Assembly (NCBI RefSeq): GCF_000378765.1
Contig: NZ_KB905342.1
Coordinates: 620,001 to 684,000 of the forward strand
DNA from: Psychroflexus tropicus DSM 15496
Lineage (GTDB): Bacteria; Bacteroidota; Bacteroidia; Flavobacteriales; Flavobacteriaceae
Length of the DNA: 64,000 nt
Reading direction: 5' to 3'
The translations under genes were made by a program, and so were the position numbers. Shown here piece after piece: positions 36,973-57,967 of this stretch. The first letter of the stretch is position 1. Every line of letters begins with the position of its first letter. Below the pieces are notes generated by a model that had not been told where the DNA came from, did no database searches, and saw nothing but the letters and a program-made list of their open reading frames with translations.

Positions 36973-37085
36973 AACATTTTTCTCCCAAAAACCGCATCAA
37001 GTTTATGGTCAAACCGTAGTACAGAAATAGATATTTAAGTTATCTTTAAATAATTGAATTTCAGTTTTTTAAAAATTAAATCGAT

Positions 37086-37582: not shown

Positions 37583-37634
37583 TATAATCAATCAAAAACA
37601 TAAAAATTATGAAAACACAACAATTCTTTTTAAG

Positions 37635-38432: not shown

Positions 38433-38438
38433 ACTGAG

Positions 38439-38987: not shown

Positions 38988-38992
38988 TAATC

Positions 38993-41455: not shown

Positions 41456-41499
41456 TAATTTATTTAATGTATGATTAGATTTTTAAAAAGTTTTAGCCA

Positions 41500-41530
41500 C
41501 GTGAGGTTTTCAAGACCTCACGGGTCTTTT
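41500..41530 (+). terminator. GTGAGG hairpin after the hydrolase pseudogene
   Basis: CGTGAGGT and ACCTCACG pair around TTTCAAG, and GGGTCTTTT follows. It is related to the hairpins at 22166 and 36937 and probably terminates the hydrolase transcript. Confidence 0.65.
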
Positions 41531-41547: not shown

Positions 41548-41717
41548 GCGCTAAGGATTGAAGTGAAAAGCCCATTGGTGCAAAAAGCATTTTTAAACGA
41601 TAAAGTCTGGCAAAGCGACCGGCGGAAGCTCTTTCCAGACTTGTAGAGGTTGCTTTTTGCTCATATGGCTTGTAGCGGAAAGCCTGCCTTTGTCGGCAGA
41701 CAGGACCGTCAACACCC
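41548..41717 (+). repeat. Structured intergenic repeat, copy B (possible ncRNA)
   Basis: It shares with 24207-24386 the blocks GCGCTAAGGATTGAAGTG, AAGCGACCGGCGGAAGCTCTT flanked by TCTGG/CCAGA, TGTAGCGGAAAGCC and AACACCC, in the same order and spacing. The 3' hairpin is different: here it is the REP-like palindrome CCTGCC...GGCAGACAGG. The element ends exactly at the stop codon of the convergent PNP gene. Compensating changes between copies (cctgg/ccagg and tctgg/ccaga) suggest RNA structure. Confidence 0.65.
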
Positions 41718-42529
41718 TAAATACTTTCTATAAGCCCTTTAAACAAAGTCACCAGCTTTGGCTCTGCTTGCTTTGCTACCGCAATAATTTCTTCTACATT
41801 TACCGGTTGTAAGTTGTCGGGATCACATTCGTCGGTTAACACCGATATGGCGGCGACTGGCAGTTGTAAATGATTAGCGACAATCACCTCAGGCACGGTA
41901 CTCATCCCTACAGCATCGGCGCCAATGATGCCCAGGTAACGGTACTCGGCACGGGTTTCCAGCTGAGGGCCCACCACCGAGGCGTAAACGCCTTGATGTA
42001 AAGTGATATCCTCTTGTTTAGCGATGTGTTTAAAAGTTGTATTCATCTCCTTATCGTAAGGGGCCAGCATATCCACAAAGCGTTCGCCAAATTGAGACAC
42101 GCCCTTAAAAGCCAGTGGCGATCCTCCCTGTAGATTGATGTGATCGTCAATTAGCATCAAGTCTCCTTTTTTGAAGTTTTTGTTGATAGCGCCTGCGGCA
42201 TTAGACACCAAAAGTTTTTGGATGCCCAGTTGCTTCATAATCCGAACAGGGTATGTGATGTCTTGAAGCGAATAGCCTTCGTAAAAGTGAAAACGCCCCT
42301 GCATCACTACGACTTTCTTGCCCGAAAGCTCACCATAAATAAATTTACCCTGATGAAACTCTACCGTGGCGGTGGGAAAATGCGGAATGTGGTTGTAACT
42401 GATTTCTTTTTCGATGTCAATGTGTTCGATAAGCTGGCCTAGGCCAGTCCCTAGAATAATACCAATTTCAGGCTTCTCGAAGCCCTTCTCCTTTAGAAAG
42501 GCTACGGTTTTATCAAGTCTGTTTTTCAT
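41717..42529 (-). CDS. Purine-nucleoside phosphorylase
   Basis: Cleaves inosine or guanosine (and deoxy forms) with phosphate to base and ribose-1-phosphate in the cytoplasm. The 270-residue trimeric-type enzyme shows GIILGTGLGQL with the phosphate site, QGRFHFYEGYS, LVSNAAGAIN, YASVVGPQLETRAEYRYL, and GADAVGMSTVPEVIVA with the base-binding asparagine region. It is the type I/punA class rather than the hexameric deoD class. It is the last gene of a minus-strand series starting with SusC, 29 bases after the DUF547 gene. A role in nucleoside salvage fits the nucleoside hydrolase further upstream. Confidence 0.92.
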   Translation of the reverse strand: MKNRLDKTVAFLKEKGFEKPEIGIILGTGLGQLIEHIDIEKEISYNHIPHFPTATVEFHQGKFIYGELSGKKVVVMQGRFHFYEGYSLQDITYPVRIMKQLGIQKLLVSNAAGAINKNFKKGDLMLIDDHINLQGGSPLAFKGVSQFGERFVDMLAPYDKEMNTTFKHIAKQEDITLHQGVYASVVGPQLETRAEYRYLGIIGADAVGMSTVPEVIVANHLQLPVAAISVLTDECDPDNLQPVNVEEIIAVAKQAEPKLVTLFKGLIESI

Positions 42530-42558
42530 TTCGCTAAAAATTCTATTAATTAAAGGTC

Positions 42559-43323
42559 TTAAAGTGCTCTGTAATTGCCTAAGCTTAGGGTCCAGTCATA
42601 GGATTTAAATTCGATGGTTTCCGCGACTTCTGGTGTTATGCCATAGGAATGTAAAATCTCTTTGGCGCCGCTTTTACCTCCAAAATCTCCTCTAAACCAG
42701 GACATTAAAGCCGTTGTCTTCACGGTTTGTGTAGCGTCGTCGTAGGTGCTATGCTCTGTGAGGTAAGCGGTTGCCATGAGGTCTAGCTCTTCATCAAGTC
42801 TTTCTGCTGAGTAAATGGCTATCGGCGGACAACTGATGGCCCCACAGTTGAGGGCAAAATGTATACGCCAGTCTACTTCATTTACTCTTAGTTTTCGCTC
42901 CCATTTAGGATTAAACCATTTTTTGAGATAACCCAAAGACCATTTAATTCTGGATTTCCTGATGATCCCGTGTTCAATATCATCAAAGGATAAAAGCTCT
43001 CCTGCAATTTTGATGCGGGGTTCACTAAAAAACTGACCTCTCGTATCCGCATTGAACAACTCAGGTTGCTCTGACAGGATTTTTTGTATGTAAGCGTTAT
43101 AAACGTTGATCCAAAAGGCTTTTTTTTGATTGTCAGTTTTTAATTGACCAGTCAAATCCTCCAAATTTGTAGTAGATAAAATCTCGATCTGAGCTTTGGT
43201 CTCTTTGCCGTTTTTGATGTTGGAGAGCAACTCTCGAGAACATTCGATATAGTCGGTTTGCTCTTGTGCCATGCTGCTATTAAGGCACATAAATGCCGTT
43301 AAAAGGACTAAAATCTTCATCAT
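42559..43323 (-). CDS. DUF547 domain protein
   Basis: A 254-residue exported protein. From the ATG at 43323 the sequence starts MMKILVLLTAFMCLNSSMAQ, a clear signal peptide; an in-frame ATG at 43395 would add 24 unlikely residues. The DUF547 core has KKAFWINVYNAYIQKILSEQ, KIAGELLSFDDIEHGIIRKS, and HFALNCGAISCPPIAIYS, the last with the conserved Cys pair. DUF547 proteins have a papain-like relative but no proven activity. It is divergent from the GT2 gene; the two start codons are 18 bases apart. Confidence 0.85.
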   Translation of the reverse strand: MMKILVLLTAFMCLNSSMAQEQTDYIECSRELLSNIKNGKETKAQIEILSTTNLEDLTGQLKTDNQKKAFWINVYNAYIQKILSEQPELFNADTRGQFFSEPRIKIAGELLSFDDIEHGIIRKSRIKWSLGYLKKWFNPKWERKLRVNEVDWRIHFALNCGAISCPPIAIYSAERLDEELDLMATAYLTEHSTYDDATQTVKTTALMSWFRGDFGGKSGAKEILHSYGITPEVAETIEFKSYDWTLSLGNYRAL

Positions 43324-43329
43324 AAAACG

Positions 43330-43337
43330 TATTTTTG
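43330..43337 (+). promoter_or_regulatory. Putative -7 promoter element of the GT2 gene
   Basis: TATTTTTG (TAnnTTTG) lies four bases before the ATG at 43342, suggesting a leaderless transcript. The gap to the divergent DUF547 gene is only 18 bases, so its -33 element would lie inside that gene. Confidence 0.4.
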
Positions 43338-43341
43338 AGGT

Positions 43342-44043
43342 ATGCTTAGTATCATCATACCAAATTACAACGAAGAGAAAAACCTGCCCAACCAATTAAC
43401 GTTTTTACAGGCTAAATCGGAGCAGTTTCCCATAGAAATCATAGTCTCCAATTCTCCGGAAACCACAGACGCCAGCCCAGAGATTTGCAAGTCCTATACT
43501 AAGGTTCAGTTTTTGGAATGCGAACGCAGTGGCCGAGCCATACAAATGAATTTTGGGGCTTCTAAAGCCAAAGGTGACATCCTATTATTTCTCCATGCGG
43601 ATATTCAGTTGCCCGATGATTTTTACGAACAGATCACAGGCGCTATAGATGCAGGCAACCAATTTGGATTTTTTGCCTACAGGTTCGATCGCCGTTCTTT
43701 GATGCTGAATATCAACAGTTATTTTACCAAAAATGACGGGGTGTTTGCTGGTGCAGGAGACCAGGCCCAATTCATTACTAAGTCTGCTTTTGATAGGCTG
43801 GGAGGCTTTGATGAAAACTATTGCATTATGGAAGATTTTAAGTTGACGGATACCGTGCGTCAACACAAACTACCATACACGATCATTCAAAGCAGAGCAA
43901 CAGTAAGCGCCAGAAAATACGATAAGGGGTCCTGGCTGAAAGTCAATTTGATCAATGGTTATGTGTTCTTGCTCTACAAACTAGGGACTGAGCCACAAAA
44001 GCTGAGAAAAATTTACAAAGGTTTGTTGAGAGAAAAGGTATAA
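43342..44043 (+). CDS. TIGR04283-type GT2 glycosyltransferase (rSAM/arsenosugar-associated transferase 2)
   Basis: A 233-residue GT-A enzyme: LSIIIPNYNEEKNLPNQL at the N-terminus, CERSGRAIQMNFGASKAKGD, then FLHADIQLP with the metal-binding Asp, and a GGFDENYCIMEDFKLTDTVR segment. Family TIGR04283 is found next to radical-SAM ArsS and is now often named for arsenosugar biosynthesis. No ArsS or ArsM gene is in this window. It is the only + strand gene in this part and converges with the TIGR04282 gene, one base apart at their 3' ends. The acceptor is unknown. Confidence 0.85.
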   Translation: MLSIIIPNYNEEKNLPNQLTFLQAKSEQFPIEIIVSNSPETTDASPEICKSYTKVQFLECERSGRAIQMNFGASKAKGDILLFLHADIQLPDDFYEQITGAIDAGNQFGFFAYRFDRRSLMLNINSYFTKNDGVFAGAGDQAQFITKSAFDRLGGFDENYCIMEDFKLTDTVRQHKLPYTIIQSRATVSARKYDKGSWLKVNLINGYVFLLYKLGTEPQKLRKIYKGLLREKV

Positions 44044-44044
44044 T

Positions 44045-44659
44045 TCACTCTACTATCTTTCCTTCAATAATCGCTTTTAGGTCCTGATGTTGTAGCGCAT
44101 TCTCTACATAGTCGATATCGGTTTTGGTCTCTAGTAAGGCATACTTCAAGCCTTTTAAATCCTTAAGTGTATCCTTGAGGACGGTCTCGGTACTCCAGGC
44201 TTTGTCCAGAAATGCACGTTTATAAAGCTGGGTCATGCCCATGAGGTAAAATCCGCCATCCTGGGCGGGTCCAAATACGAGATCGTGAGCTTCCAATTCC
44301 ATAAAGGCCTGGTCCAGGTCTGTCACTTTTAGTTCCATCAGGTCACTGCCAACGATGCAAATTTCGGAATACCCCTGTGCAAACCCCCATTCAAAAGCGG
44401 CTTGCATCTTTTCACCTAAATGACCTTGGATTTGGACTTGTTTTTGAAAAACATCCTCGCCCCAAAGATCATGGTGTTGAATGGTTTCAGAATAAAACAC
44501 TACCCGATCGGCTTCTACCTGTGCTAAGGTTTCGGCAGTGTGCTTCAATAATGTTTTATAAACCTCTAAGGCTTTTTCGTCTCCAATACTTTTGGCTAAA
44601 CGTGTTTTACACTTTCCCAATTCAGGGTTTTTGGCAAACACTATCACTAATTTATGCAT
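44045..44659 (-). CDS. TIGR04282-type glycosyltransferase, DUF2064 (rSAM/arsenosugar-associated transferase 1)
   Basis: A 204-residue nucleotidyl/glycosyl-transferase-like protein. The motif FAKNPELGKCKTRLAKSIG at the N-terminus is the nucleotide-binding signature of DUF2064. A VGSDLMEL metal-site segment and FGPAQDGGFYLMGM follow. The frame opens at 44698, but the ATG at 44659 gives the conserved start MHKLVIVFAKNP. It overlaps the rhodanese stop by one base (TGATG), implying coupling. A divergent paralogue is encoded at 52185-52847. Its partner family TIGR04283 is encoded in the convergent gene. Confidence 0.85.
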   Translation of the reverse strand: MHKLVIVFAKNPELGKCKTRLAKSIGDEKALEVYKTLLKHTAETLAQVEADRVVFYSETIQHHDLWGEDVFQKQVQIQGHLGEKMQAAFEWGFAQGYSEICIVGSDLMELKVTDLDQAFMELEAHDLVFGPAQDGGFYLMGMTQLYKRAFLDKAWSTETVLKDTLKDLKGLKYALLETKTDIDYVENALQHQDLKAIIEGKIVE

Positions 44660-45165
44660 CAATATACCTTTTGTCCTCGTTCTAAATACTTTCCCCAAAA
44701 ACGGTTATAACTATGGATTCTCTCGGTTGGTTTTTCGCTTTGGTCAAACACCTTGTGTCCTTTATTGAACCAGTCAAAGATACCGCCGTAGAGGTTATAG
44801 ACATGTGAGTAACCAGCGTCTTGTAGTTCTTCACCTATATTTTCAGATCGAACCCCAATCGAACAGTAAACCACAATAGTATCATTTTTTGAAATCTTAT
44901 CCTGAATCGCTTCTAATGTAAAATCATCATAGCCAGCATAAATAGCATCTTGGATGTGGCTAATGCTATATTCTGAGGGCTCCCGCGCATCTAAAAGTTT
45001 GACTTTAGGATTTGATTTTCTTAGCTGAATCAAATCTTCAACGCTGATGTATTCTACAGAATTGCTGTTGTAGCGCTCTAAAGCCTTTTCGATTTGACTT
45101 TGAGACCAGCTTGTGAAAGAAAGTCCCAGTAGCATGAAGGCTAACCATAACAACCGAATATTCAT
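44659..45165 (-). CDS. Secreted rhodanese-like domain protein
   Basis: A 168-residue protein with a signal peptide (cleavage near residue 22, FTSWSQS). A single rhodanese domain follows: ISVEDLIQLRKSN, KLLDAREPSEYSISHI, and the active-site loop VYCSIGVRSENIG with the nucleophilic cysteine. A C-terminal tail (ERIHSYNRFWGKYLERGQKVY) extends past the domain. It should act in the periplasm on sulfur transfer or related chemistry. It is translationally coupled to the TIGR04282 gene. The kinase-like gene lies 54 bases upstream on the same strand. Confidence 0.85.
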   Translation of the reverse strand: MNIRLLWLAFMLLGLSFTSWSQSQIEKALERYNSNSVEYISVEDLIQLRKSNPKVKLLDAREPSEYSISHIQDAIYAGYDDFTLEAIQDKISKNDTIVVYCSIGVRSENIGEELQDAGYSHVYNLYGGIFDWFNKGHKVFDQSEKPTERIHSYNRFWGKYLERGQKVY

Positions 45166-45219
45166 TTGATTTTGTTTTATCCTGGGTTTCTAATCTTGTA
45201 AAGATACTATCTTTCTTTT

Positions 45220-46227
45220 TTAATCATCGCTAAGCAATAGTGTTCTAGCCTCTTTCAACAAAGACTCACGCTGGGCGAGATCCAGACTAAGTGGAAGCTG
45301 AGCTAAGCCTAAAATACGTCTTAAGATTTCTACAGCCATAAATTGTTGACATAAGCTTTCGTCAATAGGATTCAAGTTCTTGTAGGTTTTTAGGGCTTTT
45401 TCTATGGTTGCTTCAGTTTGATTTGCCATTTTTAAATGGGCCAAAGTCACACCAATCTCAAATTCGACTTCTCCAAAAAAGCAAAATTCAGGATCGATGA
45501 ATTTTATGCCAACATCTGTTTTTAACCAGCTGCCCGGAAAAAAATCTCCATGAAGTAAGGTGGTTCCATCTTGTAAATAACGTTTACCAAGCACTTCCAC
45601 TTTACGTTTTAAATGCTCATCCTTTTTGAAAGGCTGTCCAATAGCTTTTAAGCCTGGAAGAATGTCGTCTAGATTGAGGCCATTGTTTTCTAGGTAGGGA
45701 TAGATAAAAATGTGTTCGTGGTTCAGCTTTCGCATTTCCAGATTTGGCAGACTTGCTCTGGTTGTGTTTGTATTTATACTATTGTGTAAGTCCGTGATAA
45801 AACTCATAATTTGTTCCAGCTCAGCTTCATCGATGATTTGGCCTTCCTGATATAGAAAAGTGTAATCCACTCCGTCACCTAAATCTTCCAGATTGAGAAC
45901 ATGATTTGCTTTATCTACACCTTTGAGCTGAGGCATCTGTCGACTTAGCGACTCATGCTTTGCCACCATCTGATAAAACTCGGCTTCTCGAAGTGCTCGC
46001 TCTTCTGGGGCGGGTACCTGAGGATATTTTTCAACGTAATTTCGGCTTTGCTTGATGATAAAACTACGTTCTTTAGTTTTGACCCTAATGGTAAAATTCA
46101 TATTGCCATCACCAGGGACCTCTACGGCGGTAATCTGTTCATTTAATTGTAACCAGGTCTGGGCTTTAAGGTAGTTTTCTAGACTGGCTTTATCGGCAGT
46201 TAATTCTTGTACGTGTTTCAAACTCAT
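45220..46227 (-). CDS. Methylthioribose kinase-like phosphotransferase
   Basis: A 335-residue cytoplasmic kinase of the aminoglycoside-phosphotransferase fold. The N-lobe has EVPGDGNMNFTIRV and FIIKQSRNYVEKY, close to the pattern DGNLN..FRV and IVKQ.....Y of S-methyl-5-thioribose kinases (MtnK). The catalytic loop is LLHGDFFPGSWL and the metal-binding loop KFIDPEFCFFGEVEFEIG, again like MtnK (HGD..xGS and DPEF.F.G...F.IG). It may phosphorylate methylthioribose or a similar 5'-modified ribose. Eight bases separate it from the nucleoside hydrolase gene upstream. Other sugar kinases of this fold are the alternative. Confidence 0.7.
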   Translation of the reverse strand: MSLKHVQELTADKASLENYLKAQTWLQLNEQITAVEVPGDGNMNFTIRVKTKERSFIIKQSRNYVEKYPQVPAPEERALREAEFYQMVAKHESLSRQMPQLKGVDKANHVLNLEDLGDGVDYTFLYQEGQIIDEAELEQIMSFITDLHNSINTNTTRASLPNLEMRKLNHEHIFIYPYLENNGLNLDDILPGLKAIGQPFKKDEHLKRKVEVLGKRYLQDGTTLLHGDFFPGSWLKTDVGIKFIDPEFCFFGEVEFEIGVTLAHLKMANQTEATIEKALKTYKNLNPIDESLCQQFMAVEILRRILGLAQLPLSLDLAQRESLLKEARTLLLSDD

Positions 46228-46234
46228 ATGAATT

Positions 46235-47296
46235 TTATTTTAAAAGACTTTGCATCAGCTTTTGATGATAATCTTCACTTACATCATAACAATAAGTGAT
46301 TGGCGCCCCTTCAGATGTATTGCAAAGGAGGTAATTTTTAAAATGATGACCTGAAGCCTTTAGCTTCATATCGTTAGGATGTATTTCAAGATGAGCCTTG
46401 AGTTCTTCTTTTACAATATCCTCTGGAGCCATAAGATAATGACTGGCCAGAACATCAAATGGATTGAAGCCTTCTTCCCCCATCGCTTTCCACTGGTTGA
46501 TCCAGGGTTGAGATTTTTCAGCCATCCATTGTGCTCCTGGACTGCCTCCACTCAGAGCTTCAAGATCGTCTTGAGTGATCCAGACTTTATTGGAGATTTC
46601 AAAGGGACAAAGCACTACAGGGATTTCGTTCTCAAGAAGAATACGAAAAGCATTATTATCAAGGTCAAAGTTCAGATCCGGGGCGTGTCTTACAGTAGGT
46701 TTTCCAATCTCAAAATAAGCTGTCGGACTCCGTCGACCCGCGACCAAAACCACTTCTTTGATTTGAGACTTTAACTCAGGATAAAGTAAAACTAGGGTAG
46801 CAATGTTGGTAGCAGGGCCAATAGCTAAAATATGCAAAGGCTCTTTTTTCAATTGCTTTGCGAGCGCTTCTACCGCATCATTAGTTTGAATACTGTCCAG
46901 GTTCATAGCTTTACCAGCTCCTTTGTAAACAGGAATATCATAAGGTGCAAATTCTGTTGACATTTTTTGGGACAGCCTAAAAGCATCATCAATTCTGGTG
47001 TTGCCAAAGACTGCACTCATGCCTTTGATAGATATGTTTTCAGCTTTGAACAGCTGTAATATGGCGTAACCGTCATCCACATCGCTGTAGCCCTCACGAC
47101 CATAACGTTCCATACCAACGGCAACATCCGCATCAATCCAAACCTTTTTTTTAGATTCTGGTGTCTGATTCTGTTGCATTTGACTTGATGCTGCCTCTTG
47201 GTCATTCTTTTCAGTAGAATCGGTTTTACTTTTTTGACAGCTTAGCATACCAATGGCAAAGCAAGTCAAAAGGCTAATTTTTATAAGATTATTCAT
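46235..47296 (-). CDS. Lipoprotein nucleoside hydrolase (IunH family)
   Basis: Hydrolyses N-ribosidic bonds of nucleosides. The 353-residue protein has a lipoprotein signal (IGMLSC, cysteine near residue 20) and a Gln/Ser-rich linker, so it should sit in the periplasm or at the membrane surface. The metal-binding motif is split: DADVAVGM, about ten residues, then YSDVDDGYAI. The usual form is a compact DxDxxxDDA. A VVLVAGR segment, DLNFDLDN and a C-terminal SHY histidine segment follow. It lies 22 bases after susD and eight bases before the kinase gene, so it is in the same operon. Confidence 0.85.
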   Translation of the reverse strand: MNNLIKISLLTCFAIGMLSCQKSKTDSTEKNDQEAASSQMQQNQTPESKKKVWIDADVAVGMERYGREGYSDVDDGYAILQLFKAENISIKGMSAVFGNTRIDDAFRLSQKMSTEFAPYDIPVYKGAGKAMNLDSIQTNDAVEALAKQLKKEPLHILAIGPATNIATLVLLYPELKSQIKEVVLVAGRRSPTAYFEIGKPTVRHAPDLNFDLDNNAFRILLENEIPVVLCPFEISNKVWITQDDLEALSGGSPGAQWMAEKSQPWINQWKAMGEEGFNPFDVLASHYLMAPEDIVKEELKAHLEIHPNDMKLKASGHHFKNYLLCNTSEGAPITYCYDVSEDYHQKLMQSLLK

Positions 47297-47318
47297 GAGT
47301 TTTCAGTTTTGAATTCGA

Positions 47319-48764
47319 TTAATTTTCCCACCAGTTTGTGGAGTTGATGTTATCTCCACCGATGCGTTCTACAGCGGTTTCATAATTTTCTTTGTTGACC
47401 GCCTGTTCCGATTCCGGATATAAATAGCGTACAGGGTATCTGTCATTATTGAAGTTATCGGGTCCTGGTGTGAGTTCTGGAATCCCTGTTCTTCTTACAT
47501 TGAACCAGGCTTCATGACCTATCATAAATAGACTTAACCATTTTTGAGTCAGTATTTTTTCCAAATTATCTTCAGTTGAACCATTTAAAGCAACGGCCTC
47601 TCTCATAAAATAATCGTCAGGCACCGTCGCACCATAATAGTCAAAATGCGCTTCAATGGCATTTTGATAATAGGTGTTGGCGTTGCCAGAAATAAAGCCG
47701 CGTTCTGTAGCTTCAGCCAAAGCAAATTGCACTTCAGAATACAACATAATTTGTGCATCAACTCCATTGGGCATGGCTCTGAATCGGTCTGATAAAATAG
47801 AAAGATCGTTTAAATCTACGCCGTTTTCACTAATACTTTGTGTACTTAGTCCATTTTGTAGACCTTTAAATTCTGGAGCTCCAACCAGAACACTTTTTGG
47901 GGTAGGTTTAAAAAACACACCTAGTCTAGGGTCATCCCATTCTTTGAGTTGATTCTCTACCGTTTCACTCATTTTTAGACCCTGGTAAATACCTTCAGAG
48001 GCATTGAACAAAGGAAATTGATTTGGAGCTGCACTTAAATAAGGTACTACAGCATTGTCGGCATTGGATTGCATAAGCTGCCCTCCATCAGCAAGTTCCT
48101 GTAGCTTGGTAAAGTCGGTAAGTCTATTGCTGATGCGTAATCTAAACCGAACCTGAAGAGAGTTGGCAAAACGGATCCATTGGTTAAGGTCATTATCAAA
48201 CATTATATCTCCACTTATACTTTCGCTGGTATTTTCAAGCTGAAAAGCTGCCGCTTCCAGCCGGGCTAATAAACCATCATCTGAATTAGTATAGATCTCT
48301 TCCTGTGTGTCATAAACCGGTGTAAAGTTGAGTTCATCAAACTGAATGGCTTCCGTGTAAGGCACATCTCCCCACATATCCGTCAGTTGAGAAAACAGAT
48401 ACACTTTGTAAATCTCTGCAACCCCATCATAGGCTTCATTGTATCCTGGCAATTCTTTCATAGACTCCAAATCGGTTAGAAGTCCGTAAATCATATCCCA
48501 ATAACCACTGTTGCTTCCTAATTCATAACGATCTATTCTCTCAAACTCAACATCAGCATTGAATTGTGCTAAATAGTTATTAAGCCTTAAGCCTTGATTA
48601 TAAGTATGTTCGTTGATTTGCTCAAAAATGACATTGGTGAGTAAAAACTCAGGACTTACCTCCTGGGGGGCATTAGGATTATCATTGATATCTTCGAAGT
48701 CTTCTGTGCAGCTTAAAGCCAACAGAGACATAATTAAAAGTAAATAGACTTGTATAGGTTTCAT
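47319..48764 (-). CDS. SusD/RagB family outer-membrane lipoprotein (SusD-like_2)
   Basis: A 481-residue substrate-binding lipoprotein. The signal ends in LLALSC (cysteine near residue 19), followed by TEDFEDINDNPNAPQEVSPE, typical of the SusD-like_2 group. Tetratricopeptide-like helical segments run through the body (AFQLENTSESISGD ... EVQFALAEATERGF), ending in a conserved C-terminus WFNVRRTGIPEL. SusD caps the SusC barrel and captures ligand at the cell surface. The gene is ten bases after susC. Ligand type cannot be read from the sequence; the operon's nucleoside enzymes suggest a nucleoside. Confidence 0.92.
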   Translation of the reverse strand: MKPIQVYLLLIMSLLALSCTEDFEDINDNPNAPQEVSPEFLLTNVIFEQINEHTYNQGLRLNNYLAQFNADVEFERIDRYELGSNSGYWDMIYGLLTDLESMKELPGYNEAYDGVAEIYKVYLFSQLTDMWGDVPYTEAIQFDELNFTPVYDTQEEIYTNSDDGLLARLEAAAFQLENTSESISGDIMFDNDLNQWIRFANSLQVRFRLRISNRLTDFTKLQELADGGQLMQSNADNAVVPYLSAAPNQFPLFNASEGIYQGLKMSETVENQLKEWDDPRLGVFFKPTPKSVLVGAPEFKGLQNGLSTQSISENGVDLNDLSILSDRFRAMPNGVDAQIMLYSEVQFALAEATERGFISGNANTYYQNAIEAHFDYYGATVPDDYFMREAVALNGSTEDNLEKILTQKWLSLFMIGHEAWFNVRRTGIPELTPGPDNFNNDRYPVRYLYPESEQAVNKENYETAVERIGGDNINSTNWWEN

Positions 48765-48774
48765 AACTGAGATC

Positions 48775-51700
48775 TTAAAAATTAGTTTTTAAACTGATCC
48801 CGAAACTTCGGGTTGAGGGGTAAGAAAAATCTTCAACGCCTTGAACGATATTTCTTTCCTGAAGGGCATTCAGCTCTGGATCAAAATGTGGGTTTTCTGT
48901 AAACAACAGTAAGTTGCTGCCTATAAGTCCAATCTTTAGATCTTCTGTACCTAAAGATTTCGCAATTTTATCAGAAAACGTATAATAAATGCTGAGTTGT
49001 CTCAACTTGACATAGGAAGCGTCGTAAAGCGCACTAGCTTCATTCCCTCGGTCGTAAAAGGCATTGTTGTAAGTGCTGGCGGCGACAGCTGTGGTATTTG
49101 GTACATAATTAGGATTTTCTGCAGTGCCTACATTGGTGACACCTTGGCCAATAATTCCGTTCCCATCCGCAAATTGAGTGTTTGGTGAACCTCCTTCTCT
49201 TCCCAGTAAAGTTTCTTGCAAAACACCAGAGGTGCTCCCTAATGCTTTTATTCTTGAAACGATAGTACCGCCCTGGCGCCAGTCGAATAAAATATTAACA
49301 TCGAAATGGCTAAAGGAAAAACTATTGTTGAAGCCAACAGAGAAATCTGGATTGTAATTTCCAAGTTTACGGAGAGTAGGATCCTGGACCGGTAAACCAT
49401 TGGCATCGAAAAGAGTTTGTCCATCGATTTCTACAAATCCAGTTCCGAACATATCGCCCACGCGACCGCCTTCTCTGGCGATATAAAATACGGTGTTAGA
49501 ACCTCCACTGCCGCCAAACACATTAGCCGTAGCTGTCACAAATTGATCTACACCTTGTGGAAGTTCGGTGACAACACTTCTAAAACTGCTAAAATTGATA
49601 TTAGTGTTCCATTGGAAATCACTCGTTTTGATTGGTGTGGCTGAAAGCATTAACTCTATACCTCTGGTCCTAATCTGGCCCCCATTTTCATTAAAGCTAG
49701 AAAAGCCACTGGCAGTAGAAATAGGTCTCGAAATGATCTGATCTTTACTGACGTTTTGATAAACCGAGGCGTCTAATTGAAGCCGTCCTTTTAAAAACCA
49801 GGCTTCCAATCCAGCTTCATACGCATCCAGGCGCTCTGGTCTAAGATTAGTGTTTTGTAAGACTGTGGCGTTCGTCACTCTGAAATTGGAGCCGTAATTT
49901 CCATTTAAATCAAAGGTTTGTGTGTTTTGAAAGGGATCTGTATCATTTCCTACCGAAGCTGCACTTAGTCTGAATTTCAAGAAAGAAATTGCTTCCGGCA
50001 ACTTTAAGCGTTCTGAAGCAATATAACTTAGTCCAGCCGAGTAATAACTAAACGAATTATTTTCTGAAGGTAGCGTACTGCTCCAATCGTTTCTAAAGGT
50101 GAAATCAGCATAAAGTTCATCTTTATAAGCAAAATTAGCTGTGCTGTACACACTATTGATTCGTTTTTTAAAACGTTCGCTATTGCTAAGCAGAGGGGAA
50201 CGTGAATTGGCTAAGGTATAAATCTCAGGAAGTGCTAGCTGTGAAGCTTCAGAAAAGGAATATTCAATTTCCTGATCCAGTCTGTTAGCTCCTGCGGTTA
50301 ATGTATAATTCCAGTCTTCGTTGATTTTATCCTGGTAAGTAAGTAACAGGTCAGAATTCATCTCTGTAAAACGAACATTATCTTCTCGGTAAGAGCCAAA
50401 CGGATTGGCGTTGGTGCTCACGGCCCTTCTAAATGTGCGTTTATCGTCGTAAGTATCTATACTGGTTCTTACCTTAAGCGATAATTTTTCGGAGAAGTTG
50501 TAAACTGCATAGGCATTTCCTAACACCCTGTTTTTATCAAAACTATTGGTGTTTTCAAATAAGGTGAGGTAGGGGTTGGTTAGCCATAGGTAATTGATAT
50601 CAAAATGCTGTCTGCCGGTTTGTCCAGCCTGCCAGTAATCTCTCAAGGCTCCAATATTGGTCTGTCGTCCAGTCCAGTTAAAGCCATAGAGCACATTTTC
50701 ATAACCGTAGCCTAAATTTGGCCTGTTGCCGCTTCGTGTGTTGATAAAATTTAGAAAGGTGTTGACTTCAAGTTTATCACTGAGCTGTTGATCCAGACTT
50801 ATCGAAATACCATCGCGTTTAAGATCGGTATTGGGAACTATGCCTTCGTTACGGAGGTTGCTATAGGATAATCTCATTCCTCCAATATCTCCTCGCTTGC
50901 TAATGGCAATATTGTTTTGATAAGTGATTCCTGTATTAAAGAAATCACGAACATTATCGGGTCTGGATATCCAGGGTGTTGGCGTAATTTCTGTAAACGA
51001 ACCGTCTGGAAATCTTCTCGCAATCACATCTCCTCCTCGCACAGGGTTGCCATTGATGTCTACCGATGGACTATCGAACTGAGGAATTAAAAGCCCAGCA
51101 TCCAACCGTGGTCCATAGCTACTGATTGCTCCATCATTCACTCCGGCTCCTACACCATCTTGAAAAGCGTATTGCCCATTGGAACCGACGCCATATTCAT
51201 TTTGATAATCTGGTAAAGTTAATAAAGTTTCAATCGTAAAATTACTGTTGATGCTTACCCCAAGGCCTTCCGATTTTTTGCCGCGTTTTGTGGTGATGAG
51301 AACCACTCCATTGGCGGCTCGCGTACCGTAGAGTGCAGCAGAACCCGCACCTTTCAAAATCGAAATAGATTCGATATCATCGGGGCTGAATTCTGAAGCG
51401 CCATTTCCATAATCTACTTCTTGCAAGGCACCATTATTCACTAAGTCACTAGTGATTTGCTGATTGCTGATGGGTACACCATCAACAACAAACAAGGGTT
51501 GATTGCTGCCACTCAATGAATTCTCACCACGAATAATAATTCGTGAGGAAGAACCTACACCACTGGAGCCGTTTGTGATCTGGACTCCCGCGACTTGCCC
51601 AGCCAGTCCATTAACCATATTGGTTTGCGGGACGTCAACCATTTGTTTAGAGTTGATGGTAGAGACCGCCGAGGATAATGAGCGTCTTTCTTTTTTTATC

Positions 51701-52026
51701 CCAAGTGCAGTTACTACTACTTCGTTGAGTTGTTCTTCAGAAACCTCTAGGGTAATTTCTTTTTGGAGTTGCCCATTTCTAACCTCTAAGCTTTGGGTTT
51801 TAAAACCTATAGAAGAAATTTCTAGAGTAAAATCTTGAGAGTCAGTTTCCAAACTAAACATGCCGTCAATATTAGTAGTGGCGTAATTTTGAGTGCCCTG
51901 CTCGTATACAGCTGCGTAAGGTATGGGCTGGCCATTGCTGTCAACAACTTTGGATTCATATACTCTGGATTGAGAAAACATAGTCATGGCGACCAATTGC
52001 CAAGAGACAATAAGAATTAGTTTCAT
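48775..52026 (-). CDS. SusC/RagA family TonB-linked outer-membrane transporter
   Basis: A 1083-residue TonB-dependent transporter. A signal peptide ends near residue 18. A carboxypeptidase-regulatory-like domain (SKVVDSNGQPIPYAAVYEQG ... SSIGFKTQSLEV) occupies about residues 24-90. The TonB-box-like region and plug follow (NEVVVTALGIKKERRSLSSA; SILKGAGSAALYGTRAANG). The rest is a barrel ending in a terminal aromatic (SFGISLKTNF). Plug length is ordinary for SusC. There is no sigma/anti-sigma pair or hybrid regulator beside it, so its control is not visible here. First gene of the predicted SusC-SusD-hydrolase-kinase operon. Confidence 0.95.
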   Translation of the reverse strand: MKLILIVSWQLVAMTMFSQSRVYESKVVDSNGQPIPYAAVYEQGTQNYATTNIDGMFSLETDSQDFTLEISSIGFKTQSLEVRNGQLQKEITLEVSEEQLNEVVVTALGIKKERRSLSSAVSTINSKQMVDVPQTNMVNGLAGQVAGVQITNGSSGVGSSSRIIIRGENSLSGSNQPLFVVDGVPISNQQITSDLVNNGALQEVDYGNGASEFSPDDIESISILKGAGSAALYGTRAANGVVLITTKRGKKSEGLGVSINSNFTIETLLTLPDYQNEYGVGSNGQYAFQDGVGAGVNDGAISSYGPRLDAGLLIPQFDSPSVDINGNPVRGGDVIARRFPDGSFTEITPTPWISRPDNVRDFFNTGITYQNNIAISKRGDIGGMRLSYSNLRNEGIVPNTDLKRDGISISLDQQLSDKLEVNTFLNFINTRSGNRPNLGYGYENVLYGFNWTGRQTNIGALRDYWQAGQTGRQHFDINYLWLTNPYLTLFENTNSFDKNRVLGNAYAVYNFSEKLSLKVRTSIDTYDDKRTFRRAVSTNANPFGSYREDNVRFTEMNSDLLLTYQDKINEDWNYTLTAGANRLDQEIEYSFSEASQLALPEIYTLANSRSPLLSNSERFKKRINSVYSTANFAYKDELYADFTFRNDWSSTLPSENNSFSYYSAGLSYIASERLKLPEAISFLKFRLSAASVGNDTDPFQNTQTFDLNGNYGSNFRVTNATVLQNTNLRPERLDAYEAGLEAWFLKGRLQLDASVYQNVSKDQIISRPISTASGFSSFNENGGQIRTRGIELMLSATPIKTSDFQWNTNINFSSFRSVVTELPQGVDQFVTATANVFGGSGGSNTVFYIAREGGRVGDMFGTGFVEIDGQTLFDANGLPVQDPTLRKLGNYNPDFSVGFNNSFSFSHFDVNILFDWRQGGTIVSRIKALGSTSGVLQETLLGREGGSPNTQFADGNGIIGQGVTNVGTAENPNYVPNTTAVAASTYNNAFYDRGNEASALYDASYVKLRQLSIYYTFSDKIAKSLGTEDLKIGLIGSNLLLFTENPHFDPELNALQERNIVQGVEDFSYPSTRSFGISLKTNF

Positions 52027-52184
52027 TTTTTTAAATTATGTCCGTAATCAGGTTTCGCTAGGATTAGAAAAATCTACATTAAGATTATACCTGGTATGCG
52101 AGTTTCGCTTTATTAAAGATTTCGAATAAGATTTGACCCGGAAATTATTACAAGTTTTTAAATTTTTAAAAGCCAAAATTAGGC
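52027..52184 (-). promoter_or_regulatory. Leader region of susC (no clear signal)
   Basis: The 158-base spacer between the DUF2064 gene and susC. On the minus strand a weak AAGCC...GGCTT hairpin overlaps the end of the DUF2064 gene and could terminate it. Two copies of AGCGAAAC occur further on. I find no TAnnTTTG element and no recognisable riboswitch. Confidence 0.3.
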
Positions 52185-52847
52185 TTATAAAGGGGAACCC
52201 TTGTTGTAATAAACCGAGGAGTAGTTTGAAGTAAAGTGTAGAGGGGAATCTAAAACATTTGTCTTTTGATTAGAGACGATGCTTTCTAAAATCATTTTCA
52301 ACTTTGAGAAGAAGCCAGGCTTAGAAACAAAATAAATGGCATTTTCCTGCCGATCCATTTCTGCTAAGGCCTCCAAACAGGATATAGATTTATTCTTTAA
52401 TTCTTCAAGGATTTCACTAAGAAGGGTAGACGTATTCCAGGAAAAATTCAAGAAATTTTCTTTCAAAAAATCATTTTTCTTTAGGCCCCAAAGATAAAAG
52501 CCTCCATCGTGTGAGGGCCCAAAACACATGTCATTAGTCTTTAAAACTGTAAGTGCTTTATTAATATGTTGCTTTTGAAGCTCAGGAGAATCATTTCCTA
52601 TGGTGATAACTTCATTATATCCCAACTCAAACAGGTTTTGAATTGCATTAAGGAAACGCTCTTCAAAAGAATTTCCAACCTGAAGTCGGTCATGAATCCA
52701 GTAGTAGTCTAATCCAGAGGTTTTTGCTATATTCAGCACCTTGTTGTTTTGGTACTCAAAAAAAGCTTTTGAAGCCAAAAATCGTTTATGCTTACTCTCT
52801 TCTGAAGCTGTTCTTGCAAAAATTAAAAGTGCTGTAGTTTTTCTCAT
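52185..52847 (-). CDS. Divergent DUF2064 (TIGR04282-like) protein
   Basis: A 220-residue paralogue of the protein encoded at 44045-44659. Shared features are a metal-site segment TIGNDSPEL and CFGPSHDGGFYLWGL. The N-terminal nucleotide-binding motif is altered: where the other copy has ELGKCKTRLAKSIG, this one has ESKHKRFLASKAF, without the glycine and Thr-Arg. The C-terminus carries an extra segment of about 40 residues. It may have lost transferase activity or changed substrate. It is the gene just upstream of susC on the same strand and may or may not share its transcript. Confidence 0.75.
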   Translation of the reverse strand: MRKTTALLIFARTASEESKHKRFLASKAFFEYQNNKVLNIAKTSGLDYYWIHDRLQVGNSFEERFLNAIQNLFELGYNEVITIGNDSPELQKQHINKALTVLKTNDMCFGPSHDGGFYLWGLKKNDFLKENFLNFSWNTSTLLSEILEELKNKSISCLEALAEMDRQENAIYFVSKPGFFSKLKMILESIVSNQKTNVLDSPLHFTSNYSSVYYNKGSPL

Positions 52848-52919: not shown

Positions 52920-53300
52920 TTATTTACCAGGTTTAATAATCAAAGCATTAGGGTATTCCGATTTGATTTGTTCTTTTACTCTATCGGCTTGAATTCTGTT
53001 TCTGAAACTTCCTATCCATACCTTGTAATTTGGAGTTTGGTATACGATTTTAGAAGTTAGATCAAGTTCCATAGCCTCTAATACTTGCTGGCTTTCTTTC
53101 GCTTTCTCCAATGCGCCAGAAAAGATTTGGATTTTGTAGGTGGTTTTGAGTTCGTAATTAGACTCTAATTCATGCTTTTTGTTTATCAATTCATCAACCT
53201 TTGTGAGTTCAGTTGAGGTTAATTTGGATTGGGCAAACTGATTGAATGTTGCTGCAAAAAAGAATATAATTGGGGCTAAAATGTTAAAAATTTTCGACAT
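52920..53300 (-). CDS. SPOR domain protein
   Basis: A 126-residue exported protein with a signal peptide (cleavage near residue 24, NQFAQS). A short coiled stretch (TKVDELINKKHELESNYEL) precedes a SPOR-type domain from about residue 52 (TTYKIQIFSGALEKAKESQQ ... YKVWIGSFRNRIQADRVKEQ). SPOR domains bind peptidoglycan lacking stem peptides, usually at division sites. It is divergent from the respiratory operon; the two starts are about 200 bases apart. Confidence 0.85.
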   Translation of the reverse strand: MSKIFNILAPIIFFFAATFNQFAQSKLTSTELTKVDELINKKHELESNYELKTTYKIQIFSGALEKAKESQQVLEAMELDLTSKIVYQTPNYKVWIGSFRNRIQADRVKEQIKSEYPNALIIKPGK

Positions 53301-53429: not shown

Positions 53430-53500
53430 TAGTCAATTTTTTGACGCCTAAAACCTATGTATTTATGGGTGTCGCATTGAAAAAGACTAATAAATATTAT

Positions 53501-54865
53501 ATGAAAAAGACGATGGAACGCCCATTTATTCTGAAACATTTCTTCCTAGTGTTTTTATTGCTTTTCACCTTAACCACTTTTTCACAAGAAAGTGAGGCTG
53601 AGGCTCCTAAGGAAGAAAGTTCTCAAGAAGAGAGTGAGTCTGGATTTGGTTCTTATGTGCCCGATGTGGTGGCAAACGCAGATCCTGCTAAAGGTAAGGA
53701 GATGTTCAACTCTCTTTGTGCTGCTTGTCATAAGCGTTACAAAAATGCTACAGGTCCTTCTTTACATGAAGTTACTAAGCGTAGAGATATGGATTGGCTT
53801 TACAAATGGATTGTAAACAGTCAGGAGTTAATCAAATCTGGAGATACTCAAGCTGTTCAATTATATGAAGAGTGGAATAAGGTCGCGATGAATGCTTTTC
53901 CTCAGTTAAGCGAGGAAGATATGAACAACATCCTGGCTTATGTAGAACAGCCAAAGCCTGAGCCTAAAGTAGACGTTGCAGCCGCAGCTCCAGCAGAAGC
54001 GCAAGGTGGTGGTGGAATCTCTACTGAAATCGTATTAGGCCTGCTTGCTATTGTATTGCTCGTATTGTCGGTAATTCTTTATCTAGTCAATAAAACTTTG
54101 AACAGATTTGCTGAAGCCAATGGCATTCCTGTAAAAGCAGATAAACCTAAAGGAAAACCGATCTGGGTAGCCTTTGCAGAAAACCAATTCTTAGTTTTGG
54201 TTTCTGTAGTCTTTTTACTTCTCGCTGTGGCTTGGGGCGGATATGGCTTCCTAATGCAGGTTGGAGTTGACCAAGGTTACGCACCAATACAACCTATTCA
54301 TTACTCACACAGAATTCATGCTGGTGAAAACCAAATCGAATGTAAATATTGTCACTCCTCGGCGAGAGTCTCAAAACATTCTGGTATTCCTTCACTAAAC
54401 GTATGTATGAATTGTCATAAACAAATTGCTGAGGTGGCTGAAGAAACTCAGAAAGAAGGTCAGGAAGAATACGGTGTTGATTACAATGCTGAAATCCAAA
54501 AGCTTTACGAAGCAACAGGGTGGGATACTTCTACGCAGTCTTATACTGGTGAAACCAAGCCTGTAAAATGGATACGTATTCACAACTTGCCTGATTTTGC
54601 TTACTTCAATCACTCACAACACGTTACTGTCGGTGGGATCGATTGTCAAACTTGTCACGGCCCTGTTGAAACTTATGAAATACAGAAGCAATATGCTCCT
54701 TTAACCATGGGATGGTGTATCAATTGTCACCGTGAAACCAACATTAAGGTTGAGGGTAATGCTTACTACGAAAAAATACATGAAGAACTTTCCAAAAAAT
54801 ACAATGTCGAGGAGCTAACTGCAGCTGAGATGGGTGGATTGGAATGTGGAAAGTGTCATTATTAA
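53501..54865 (+). CDS. actA: Alternative complex III subunit A, multihaem cytochrome c fused to a monohaem domain
   Basis: Part of the quinol:cytochrome c oxidoreductase (alternative complex III). The 454-residue protein starts MKKTMERPF at the ATG at 53501; an open frame begins earlier at 53441 but without a signal. A signal peptide is followed by an acidic linker and a first haem motif CAACH (residues 73-77) in a monohaem cytochrome c domain. A membrane helix lies near residue 170. Then come five haem motifs: CKYCH, CMNCH, CQTCH, CINCH and CGKCH, the pentahaem ActA arrangement. The gene is 27 bases before actB. Confidence 0.9.
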   Translation: MKKTMERPFILKHFFLVFLLLFTLTTFSQESEAEAPKEESSQEESESGFGSYVPDVVANADPAKGKEMFNSLCAACHKRYKNATGPSLHEVTKRRDMDWLYKWIVNSQELIKSGDTQAVQLYEEWNKVAMNAFPQLSEEDMNNILAYVEQPKPEPKVDVAAAAPAEAQGGGGISTEIVLGLLAIVLLVLSVILYLVNKTLNRFAEANGIPVKADKPKGKPIWVAFAENQFLVLVSVVFLLLAVAWGGYGFLMQVGVDQGYAPIQPIHYSHRIHAGENQIECKYCHSSARVSKHSGIPSLNVCMNCHKQIAEVAEETQKEGQEEYGVDYNAEIQKLYEATGWDTSTQSYTGETKPVKWIRIHNLPDFAYFNHSQHVTVGGIDCQTCHGPVETYEIQKQYAPLTMGWCINCHRETNIKVEGNAYYEKIHEELSKKYNVEELTAAEMGGLECGKCHY

Positions 54866-54892
54866 TATTAATACAGAAAATTAAAGTTCAAT

Positions 54893-57800: not shown

Positions 57801-57967
57801 CTAATGCCTGTGACAACGGTGCCATGGTATTTGGTGACATCAACGATAAAGAAAGCGTTGTATATGAGAAAACACAAGAGGATAGAATGTATCACTTGCT
57901 TGAGTACTTAGGGACTAAGCCAAATGTGATGTATCACACCAAAATCCGAAATACAACAGAAGCATAA
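54893..57967 (+). CDS. actB: Alternative complex III subunit B (TAT-variant molybdopterin-like/4Fe-4S protein)
   Basis: A 1024-residue subunit that combines a molybdopterin-oxidoreductase-like domain, without visible cofactor ligands, and a C-terminal ferredoxin domain. Residues 50-75 carry TTRRDFLKYVGFSTAAASLA followed by a cysteine (twin-arginine signal and lipobox), after an unusual long cytoplasmic head, as in the TAT-variant family. Cysteine clusters for Fe-S centres are CTGCGACVIAC, CQHCNHAPCETVC, CVGTRYCANNCPY, and CSMCIQ with CSNAC. It passes electrons from the quinol side to the haems of ActA. Confidence 0.94.
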   Translation: MSSEKKYWKSAEQLKDDSPLVEALEQNEFAEHIPADEFLGDKDKLESSQTTRRDFLKYVGFSTAAASLAACEGPVVKSIPYVVQPERIIPGVSDYYATTIANGFDFASILVKTREGRPIKIETNKESKGLSAGKARVHASVLDLYDIKRLQNPQIENRDVTWTEFFSSLESDLKANSDKRTYLLTQTFASPSTDKLIKEFQEKYPNVVHVVYDSISEEPALDAFEAKYGFRALPNYDFSKSKMIVSVGADFLGDWQGGAFDSGYSKSRVPKNGKMSRHVQFEANMTLSGANSDKRIPVKPSVQNQIVVEFYNQIVGRVASTNLSDAVQAQVDKAVAQLKSNSTGSVFVTGLQSVEAQAMALEINEKLSSAVLDTDNPRLIRQGQNSKINTLISEMNAGNVGALMIAGANPAYSLPSADAFVSAMEKVNTTVSFSMKKDETAKLCKYIAATPHYLESWGDVRFTKKDFSLIQPTIKPLFNTKQFEDCLLKLNGNSTKYYEYVKDNFKSTFEGMSWNTSLHDGSFEYDLSLPAPVETTPINISAGARKLVSGKDAEGLELTLYTKTSLGDGEHANNPWLQEMPDPVTRTSWDNYVTMSRRDAEALGLENTNVANGALNGNYVVVSLGDKKLEKLPVIIQPGQAPGSIGLALGYGKKESIQAEMQVGVNAYPLYQNFDVNQVVSVEAVDGVHEFACVQLHHTMMGRKDIVKETSLEIFNTKDKHHWNPTPEVSLNHQEVEVTNPDVDLWDEFDRSIGHHFNLSIDLNACTGCGACVIACHSENNVPVVGKNEIRKSRDMHWLRIDRYYSSEDTIEEDYEKKNDISGLGSAIGTYGELEVASAEDVQVIFQPVMCQHCNHAPCETVCPVAASAHGRQGQNHMTYNRCVGTRYCANNCPYKVRRFNWFLYNQNDEFDYHMNNDLGRMVLNPDVTVRSRGVMEKCSMCIQMTQKTILDAKREGRVIEDGEFQTACSNACDNGAMVFGDINDKESVVYEKTQEDRMYHLLEYLGTKPNVMYHTKIRNTTEA

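Follow-up and report, generated by a model that had tools for sequence, protein, structure and literature searches.

What does a SusC/SusD pair take up when its neighbours are a nucleoside hydrolase (NH), a kinase resembling methylthioribose (MTR) kinase and proteins of arsenosugar clusters? Such a locus lies at 41717-52847 of the window, the whole stretch of 64,000 nucleotides of Psychroflexus tropicus DSM 15496 that was analysed. A search of openly licensed papers found nothing on it. The initial annotation had read the locus as an outer-membrane uptake and salvage route for a nucleoside, perhaps methylthioadenosine (MTA) or an arsenic nucleoside. Judged from comparison of sequences, the window on balance probably holds a set of scavenging genes, or head, that feeds an ArsS-type (arsenosugar-type) pathway.

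Genes of the locus

Open reading frames and family scans verified every gene named in the initial annotation (Table 1). The head runs from the DUF2064 gene to the kinase gene, and the tail from the rhodanese gene to the purine nucleoside phosphorylase (PNP) gene. The genes beyond the head are labelled SPOR, ActA and ActB. There is no sharp change of base composition at the head.

Table 1. Genes of the locus and its flank, in window coordinates, with model scores and cut-offs in bits
Feature	Position	Strand	Remarks
DUF2064 protein (T4282b)	52185..52847	-	head begins with this gene; fold like that of nucleotidyltransferases; PF09837, 72.6
SusC-type TonB-linked outer-membrane protein	48775..52026	-	TIGR04056, 605 (cut-off 368)
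SusD-like lipoprotein (SusD-like_2)	47319..48764	-	PF12771, 321
Lipoprotein NH, inosine-uridine type	46235..47296	-	PF01156, 111.4 (cut-off 34.2)
MTR-kinase-like sugar 1-kinase (putative activity)	45220..46227	-	PDB relatives 2pyw, 2olc
Rhodanese, signal-like N-terminal stretch	44659..45165	-	first gene of the tail; NF045521, 200 (cut-off 145)
TIGR04282 transferase	44045..44659	-	tail; 197.6 (cut-off 134)
TIGR04283 glycosyltransferase	43342..44043	+	within the tail; 196.2 (cut-off 182)
DUF547 protein	42559..43323	-	divergent from TIGR04283; PF04784, 110
PNP	41717..42529	-	tail; TIGR01700, 303
Small secreted protein (SPOR)	52920..53300	-	marks the boundary of the exchange site
Two respiratory-complex genes (ActA, ActB)	53441..57967	+	anchors for locating the site in other genomes

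Two starts were set by reading the translations: the TIGR04282 frame extends to 44698 with a probable ATG at 44659, which gives a 1-base overlap with the rhodanese gene, and the DUF547 frame is listed to 43395 with a probable ATG at 43323. TIGR04282 and TIGR04283, both proteins of arsenosugar clusters, score above their cut-offs, and the TIGR04283 gene is placed identically in genome G173. The DUF2064 protein reaches 91.6 bits with the TIGR04282 model, below the cut-off of 134, and the loop usual in TIGR04282 proteins is changed or lost; its predicted fold is closest to 3cgx and next to 2i5e. The PNP matches the PNP I model, while the MTA phosphorylase model gives just 98.5 bits (cut-off 275), and it looks like an ordinary PNP I.

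The SusC and SusD pair is present, and the family scan of the ten locus proteins found no glycan-degrading enzyme. Could the locus serve general nucleoside or ribose catabolism, with SusCD importing nucleosides, NH releasing ribose and the kinase phosphorylating it for use as carbon? In the ribose-utilisation system of Bacteroides, SusCD occurs with a nucleoside hydrolase, and a ribokinase stands beside both. In favour, the window shares the first two elements, and in other genera a gene of the ADP-ribosylglycohydrolase family adjoins the kinase. However, family scans of the ten proteins gave no ribokinase; the kinase belongs to the MTR-kinase type and has its RR motif, the DUF2064 partner recurs, and the locus has ties to ArsS-type genes, ArsS itself replacing the head at a single site. 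Ribose catabolism is an improbable explanation.

An exchange site in Psychroflexus

Where does this head come from? The ActA and ActB genes served to locate the site in 26 of the 27 genomes of Psychroflexus, the one left out being G166 (52% complete and lacking ActB); the window enters with its own open reading frames and family scans. Three kinds of head occur, one per genome at the site. The first, ArsS with a peroxidase-like companion, is found in 16 of the 26 placed genomes, including G169, for which the placement is only inferred because the contig with ActB breaks off behind SPOR, leaving the ArsS set on a separate contig. The second, an importer with NH and kinase, is found in five, the window among them. 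The third, also in five, has an importer of the same type as the second head, with a different radical-SAM protein and without NH or kinase; what this type of importer carries is therefore not necessarily a nucleoside. The SPOR protein is present in the other 25 placed genomes and adjoins the head except in G168, where two small frames intervene, and at the contig end in G169.

The tail is shared. Rhodanese and TIGR04282 follow the head in 24 of 26 genomes (rhodanese is absent in G161 and TIGR04282 in G172), and PNP belongs to the tail in 22. A tree of ActB requires six head changes; six switches between ArsS and either of the other heads already follow from its firm branches. The window, with NH and kinase, is sister to G158, with ArsS, and the same holds for G155 (NH-kinase) and G156 (ArsS). 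Identities of the window proteins to those of G158 and G155, respectively, are 66% and 68% for rhodanese, 68% and 66% for TIGR04282, and 90% and 88% for PNP; by these comparisons the tail proteins are equally near to neighbours with either head. The two sets are not strictly exclusive, since in G149 the site carries ArsS while an NH-kinase module lies at another location.

Might the site simply be a recombination hot spot, whose three heads are functionally unrelated cargo? Heads do switch among close neighbours, and additional genes stand in or next to the site in some genomes, G168 and G174 among them. Against this, merely three kinds of head occur over 26 genomes with the same two genes usually following, the TonB receptors of the second and third heads are 65-69% identical wherever both possess one, and the kinase has the same partners in other genera. 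We regard unrelated cargo as very doubtful.

Conservation in other genera

The congeneric genome G155 has the identical order DUF2064-SusC-SusD-NH-kinase-rhodanese-TIGR04282-PNP, without TIGR04283 and DUF547. The initial annotation had called for a check on conservation of gene order, and it came out in favour: DUF2064-SusC-SusD-NH-kinase recurs in further genera and in several families of Bacteroidota. Because of this recurrence and of the order in G155, the arrangement is above chance. In six Dyadobacter loci the kinase adjoins T4282, ArsS, TIGR04169, T4283 and DUF547, although three of these (L110, L111 and L112) are the same but for 1-3 of 20963 bases and are hardly independent. Of 15 Flavobacteriaceae loci, 10 have TIGR04282 no more than 10 kb from the kinase, and five of these ten have an arsenosugar-type ArsM (cut-offs verified on three ArsM copies).

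Nucleoside hydrolase and type of importer

Residues D55, D57, D74 and D75 of NH are invariant in the 12 aligned proteins, an acidic motif that we take to be the ribose/calcium motif. Among 19 loci that lack ABC importer genes, NH was assigned a signal sequence in 18; among the 20 that have such genes, in none. L055 breaks the pattern. The rule is home-made: signal calls have hydropathy maxima of about 2.2 or more, and L042/L047 and L043, with maxima of about 1.5, were scored as having no signal. One-genome duplicates (L040/L045, L041/L046, L042/L047, L044/L048) were each entered once, L077 (partial NH) was excluded, and the window NH was included from its translation. On firm branches the link comes down to three independent contrasts (sign test, p 0.25). 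The proposal of outer-membrane uptake and nucleoside-like salvage is supported by this pattern, in which the signal of NH tracks loci lacking ABC genes, and by the co-occurrence of importer, NH and kinase across families.

The kinase and methylthioadenosine salvage

The closest solved structures of the kinase are MTR kinases. Its score with the MTR kinase model TIGR01767 is 117.2 bits, below the curated cut-off of 275, and it is therefore named kinase-like. According to PMC2194712, the GxGNxN, HGD, IDxEF and RR motifs of MTR kinases bind ATP-Mg and ribose. In 21 aligned kinases, GxGNxN, HGD, DPEF and RR are invariant, as is a Glu three residues before RR, and the I of IDxEF is kept in 19. The semi-conserved Trp of the W-loop, which caps the 5-methylthio group, is found in none of the 21 in the aligned stretch.

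Does the locus then salvage MTA or 5'-deoxyadenosine, by the logic of methionine salvage or the DHAP shunt (hydrolase, C1 kinase, isomerase, aldolase)? The two initial steps, by a nucleosidase and by an MTR-kinase-type enzyme acting on C1 of the sugar, would be shared with the 5-deoxyribose/methylthioribose pathway as set out in PMC6079011, and the kinase structures point the same way. Unlike that pathway, the window has TonB uptake and a DUF2064 partner, and the genus gives no match to the isomerase: MtnA (TIGR00512) and the IF-2B family (PF01008) are each found in 0 of 27 Psychroflexus genomes, in searches whose controls matched in 9 of 14 cases each. In the 149 genomes of the window's family IF-2B is never above the cut-off, with a single weak sub-threshold match. 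MTA salvage is unlikely because the isomerase family was found in none of the 27 genomes of the genus; MTA as cargo was not borne out, and its salvage was rejected as the main reading. Together with the absent Trp, these searches make salvage of either compound highly improbable.

A radical-SAM gene lies downstream of the kinase in eight loci. Queuosine-type salvage combines NH with radical SAM, and was considered for this reason; it was set aside, as the one copy scanned reached no family cut-off.

The link to ArsS and possibly to arsenic

The initial annotation had pointed to ArsM or ArsS as neighbours to look for. For the window genome the check was negative: ArsS gave 0 matches, and the best arsenosugar-type ArsM (E 4.7e-7) is below the cut-off. 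The heads substitute for one another, and it is by position that the proposed ArsS-type link holds up, with ArsS filling the same site in the 16 genomes noted above. Across all 27 Psychroflexus genomes, ArsS exceeds the cut-off in 16. TIGR04283 is above its cut-off in 22 of the 27, some of them without ArsS. A positive correlation of kinase and ArsS across genomes was rejected, the reverse being seen. In the window's family, ArsS occurs in 8 of 16 kinase carriers and 102 of 133 others (Fisher p 0.033), and in the genus in 1 of 6 and 15 of 21 (p 0.027), both p values being rough because the genomes are related. Beyond this comparison, ArsS accompanies the importer-NH-kinase module in 10 of the 35 genomes searched that carry the module.

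The ArsS arsenosugar cluster consists of ArsM, ArsS (TIGR04167), TIGR04169, TIGR04282 and TIGR04283. The window resembles it in the tail, rhodanese-TIGR04282(-TIGR04283-DUF547)-PNP, and in the chromosomal position within Psychroflexus. It differs in having the importer-hydrolase-kinase set instead of ArsS and TIGR04169, and in the absence of ArsM, which is at the site in some near relatives.

A proposed role: scavenging what relatives make

How would a scavenging head work? A 5'-modified nucleoside or riboside would pass the outer membrane through SusCD, and in the periplasm the lipoprotein hydrolase would strip off the base. The freed 5-modified ribose would reach the cytosol, where the kinase would phosphorylate carbon 1; the SusCD version of the locus has no inner-membrane transporter gene. 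Relatives that possess an ABC importer would take in the whole compound and remove the base with a cytosolic hydrolase. The sugar 1-phosphate would pass to the DUF2064 proteins, with their nucleotidyl-transfer fold, and to the glycosyltransferase, taking the place of the product of ArsS and PNP in nucleoside-making species. We infer each of these reactions and their order, and, from position, the nature of the cargo as an arsenic nucleoside or arsenosugar. What the sequences themselves show is gene content, conservation, the exchange site, the motifs of the kinase, the association of the hydrolase signal with the type of importer, and the lack of ArsS, ArsM and MtnA matches. Several observations weigh against the scheme: the window genome has neither ArsS nor an arsenosugar-type ArsM above cut-off and so gives no direct sign of arsenic, ArsS and the NH-kinase module coexist in some genomes, TIGR04283 occurs in some Psychroflexus genomes without ArsS, the PNP looks ordinary, the locus has no inner-membrane transporter gene, the loop of the DUF2064 protein is lost, the link between NH signal and importer has few independent contrasts, and the third head shares the importer type without NH or kinase.

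The importer set stands where close relatives keep ArsS, and some species may therefore scavenge what others make. More tentatively, and with rather less confidence than in the scavenging head itself, the single site can be pictured as toggling between making and scavenging one metabolite, a third set having the same kind of importer with a second radical-SAM enzyme. Makers would use ArsS to adenosylate methylated arsenic; scavengers would import the arsenic nucleoside or arsenosugar by a dedicated TonB system, with re-entry through the hydrolase and the sugar 1-kinase. If so, arsenosugars would be goods that bacteria share. The close pairs, window with G158 and G155 with G156, offer a direct comparison of making and scavenging, and the repeated exchange of ArsS for importer, hydrolase and C1 kinase provides candidate enzymes for a 5-modified ribose 1-phosphate intermediate.

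The same architecture could also serve another, non-arsenic 5'-modified nucleoside or riboside. This seems rather unlikely, though less so than the other alternatives. It would fit a window genome lacking ArsS and arsenosugar-type ArsM above cut-off, and the YnjB-type importer of some relatives, for which we know of no established ligand. On the other side, ArsS is, to our knowledge, the sole enzyme of characterised reaction that shares the site.

A scavenging head would suggest a nucleoside-type ligand for both the SusCD and the YnjB-type importers. The ABC-bearing Psychroflexus relatives and the ydjXYZ-ynjABCDE operon of E. coli both have a YnjB-family importer in the vicinity of a sulfurtransferase gene. 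The E. coli operon has no annotated TonB receptor, hydrolase or kinase, whereas the window version has no ABC genes. E. coli YnjB is 31% identical to the Kriegella-type protein.

An exchange site in Psychroflexus

All ten genes that the initial annotation had named were found in their places by open reading frames and family scans. The methylthioribose (MTR)-kinase-like protein (the kinase) scores 117 bits against its family (cut-off 275) and the DUF2064 protein upstream of SusC, T4282b, scores 91.6 bits against TIGR04282 (cut-off 134); both fall below their cut-offs and are therefore divergent. The purine nucleoside phosphorylase (PNP) is, by family scan, of the inosine/guanosine type and not a methylthioadenosine (MTA) phosphorylase. 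Psychroflexus is a genus within the Flavobacteriaceae, and among named genomes the closest kinase, at 76%, is that of P. aestuariivivens. A second TIGR04283 protein, lying outside the locus (Table), scores 243 bits, against 196 for the window's copy.

What occupies this chromosomal site in other members of the genus? The site was placed through two neighbouring genes, which we take to be ActA and ActB, and the following genes were read; ActB was found in 26 of 27 Psychroflexus genomes. Between the flank (the Act genes and a small secreted protein) and a tail running from rhodanese to PNP stands one of three heads (Table), and in none of the 26 placed genomes is the site without a head or occupied by two. 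Rhodanese and TIGR04282 are both in the tail in 24/26 (rhodanese was not found in G161, nor TIGR04282 in G172) and PNP in 22/26 (not found in G149, G157, G169, and G172); in G169, contig ends split the site. Six of the 16 genomes with head A carry T4282b and ArsM in addition. Over the whole genomes, only G149 has both the kinase and an ArsS match above cut-off, and there the module of nucleoside hydrolase (NH) and kinase lies away from the site. Of all the evidence, the exchange of ArsS for other heads weighs most, and it is robust as genome anatomy.

Table. Heads at the exchange site of Psychroflexus, and other features with their positions
Feature	Description	Genomes or locus	Position
Head A	TIGR04169 - ArsS	16 genomes: G149, 150, 151, 156-164, 167, 169, 170, 173
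Head B	T4282b - importer genes (either SusC-SusD or a TonB receptor, the latter in some cases with ABC) - NH - kinase	5 genomes: window, G152, G155, G172, G174
Head C	T4282b - TonB receptor (absent in G171) - ABC - 320-residue radical-SAM protein	5 genomes: G153, 154, 165, 168, 171
Radical-SAM protein	about 320 residues; CxxxCxxC and additional conserved cysteines	L146	10644-11657
Radical-SAM protein	same features	L147	11244-12194
Radical-SAM protein	same features	L151, L152, L154
Second TIGR04283 protein	outside the window's locus	L134 (genome G000, contig C7)	29616-30272
Region left of PNP	one frame of 619 residues, and small frames of secreted or lipoprotein-like type	window	36000-41500

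Two genes past PNP are common to 11 genomes, among which every head is represented (A in 6, B in 3, C in 2); by our reading of the translations, the window's flank beyond PNP is unlike theirs, and the region left of PNP (Table) differs in the same way. Head C seems to be interrupted in G168 (locus L154): the TonB receptor is split in two, a solute-binding match occurs twice, and additional frames lie in between.

Have the heads changed repeatedly? Mapped on an ActB protein tree of 26 rows, their distribution takes six changes, and six switches between head A and the other two are required by well-supported branches; the head labels are still somewhat clustered (2/200 shuffles as low). G172 sits on a long branch. 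The sister of the window (head B) is G158 (head A; support 99/97), and that of G155 (head B) is G156 (head A; 100/99). The window's tail proteins are equally near to those of G158 and G155 (rhodanese 66 and 68%, TIGR04282 68 and 66%, PNP 90 and 88%), which suggests vertical inheritance for the tail and exchange for the head. Receptors in head B (G152) and head C share 65-69% identity, so these two heads probably take up compounds of one kind.

The radical-SAM protein of head C was counted at the site. Structure prediction (mean pLDDT 71.5) gives it a fold closest to BtrN and EpeE, and the copy scanned (L079) reaches no NCBIfam cut-off. It also directly follows the kinase in eight more loci (L057, L065, L071, L078-L081, and L090).

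The importer-NH-kinase module across Bacteroidota

The kinase is present in 16/149 genomes of a family sample and in 6/27 of the genus. Its neighbours were surveyed in the best 80 of 555 confirmed loci, in named genomes, and labelled by best match to proteins of the window and its relatives. The initial annotation had read these genes as one nucleoside uptake and salvage route, and their order is broadly kept in relatives: in the best 80 loci the set T4282b, SusC, SusD, an ABC solute-binding protein with two permeases and an ATPase (in some loci), NH, and kinase recurs with partly varied order. The genera include Psychroflexus, Cellulophaga, Maribacter, Leeuwenhoekiella, and Arenibacter, and the set reaches Algoriphagus, Marivirga, Portibacter, Membranihabitans, and Cryomorpha. 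Among the 58 loci that extend 8 kb or more to both sides, an NH-type gene adjoins the kinase in 45, while a DUF2064 gene lies within 11 kb in 40 and SusD in 30. The solute-binding protein of a Kriegella-type locus (L025) belongs to the YnjB family (PRK11622) and is 31% identical to E. coli YnjB.

An FAD-oxidoreductase-like protein of 480-498 residues adjoins the kinase in L052, L056, and L070, between the SusCD-NH-kinase module and TIGR04283. The relative that was scanned (L105) shows similarity to mercuric reductase and dihydrolipoyl dehydrogenase, with no cut-off reached among the 25 matches shown.

An NH that works on whatever is imported should be located according to the importer type. 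Amino ends were inspected in 43 loci, duplicates among these; for the tally, duplicates and one partial locus were taken out and the window put in. By our own hydropathy and lipobox rule, not a dedicated predictor, NH is signal-like in 0/20 loci with ABC genes versus 18/19 without (Fisher p 3e-10, the loci being related), L055 being the sole exception. Firm branches give no more than three independent contrasts; almost always these run as expected, but so few of them cannot reach significance (p 0.25).

Which compound is handled?

The initial annotation suggested MTA or an arsenic nucleoside. MTA salvage is a poor fit: MtnA, its isomerase, and the IF-2B family, which includes MtnA-type isomerases, are each found in 0/27 Psychroflexus genomes. 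Across the 149 genomes of the family sample, no IF-2B match exceeds the cut-off and one is weak and sub-threshold; controls were positive in 9/14 genomes, and therefore the search method works. Ordinary glycan uptake also fits poorly. As for ArsS and ArsM near the locus, which the annotation proposed to look for, neither passes its cut-off in the window's own genome (completeness 100% by the tool's measure): ArsS has no match, and no arsenosugar-type ArsM lies above cut-off.

Among solved structures the kinase is nearest to two MTR kinases, one being 2pyw (an entry labelled uncharacterized protein), which we take to be Arabidopsis MTR kinase. The motifs binding ATP-Mg and ribose O1, O2, and O3, as defined for the Arabidopsis enzyme in PMC2194712, are conserved in 21 aligned kinases, and the Trp capping the 5-methylthio group is present in 0/21. 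From this combination we infer that the kinase acts on C1 of a ribose bearing some other 5-substituent.

T4282b has a predicted nucleotidyl-transferase fold (mean pLDDT 84.5), nearest to 3cgx (TM 0.75) and then to 2i5e, a probable nucleotidyltransferase that is presumably CofC. Rv2983, which we assume to be FbiD, and a 3-phosphoglycerate guanylyltransferase are also among its structural matches. T4282b departs from TIGR04282 proteins in the loop where these carry the KTRL motif.

ArsS makes 5'-arsenic adenosine. PMC12159101 states that in oxo-arsenosugar biosynthesis a radical-SAM enzyme adenosylates arsenic. PNP would convert the ArsS product to a sugar 1-phosphate in one step, and NH with the kinase would reach a sugar 1-phosphate in two; such a shared intermediate would account for heads replacing each other. 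An arsenic cargo is plausible. The locus may instead serve generic nucleoside use, or its cargo may be another 5'-modified compound.

Kinase neighbourhoods in other genera

The kinase of six Dyadobacter loci (L085, L088, L110, L111, L112, and L114) stands beside DUF547, TIGR04283, TIGR04169, ArsS, and TIGR04282 genes; one ArsS copy and one TIGR04169 copy were compared with cut-offs. Three of them, L110, L111, and L112, are almost the same sequence, differing by only 1 and 3 of 20963 bases, which is odd for loci recorded from three Dyadobacter species. ArsS is over cut-off in 16/49 named kinase carriers searched, taken from 50 of the 80 loci (10/35 with the importer-NH-kinase module, 5/6 Dyadobacter, 1/8 others) and in 110/149 genomes of the family sample.

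TIGR04282 lies at most 10 kb from the kinase in 10/15 family loci; in these ten the kinase is always followed by an ADP-ribosylglycohydrolase-family gene and PNP is always present, and five have an arsenosugar-type ArsM nearby. All 11 Flavobacteriaceae loci L027-L037 have an ADP-ribosylglycohydrolase-like gene after the kinase (family checked in L036 and L030). Behind it, several carry a gene of about 525 residues, which in L036, the sole copy tested, is GH32.
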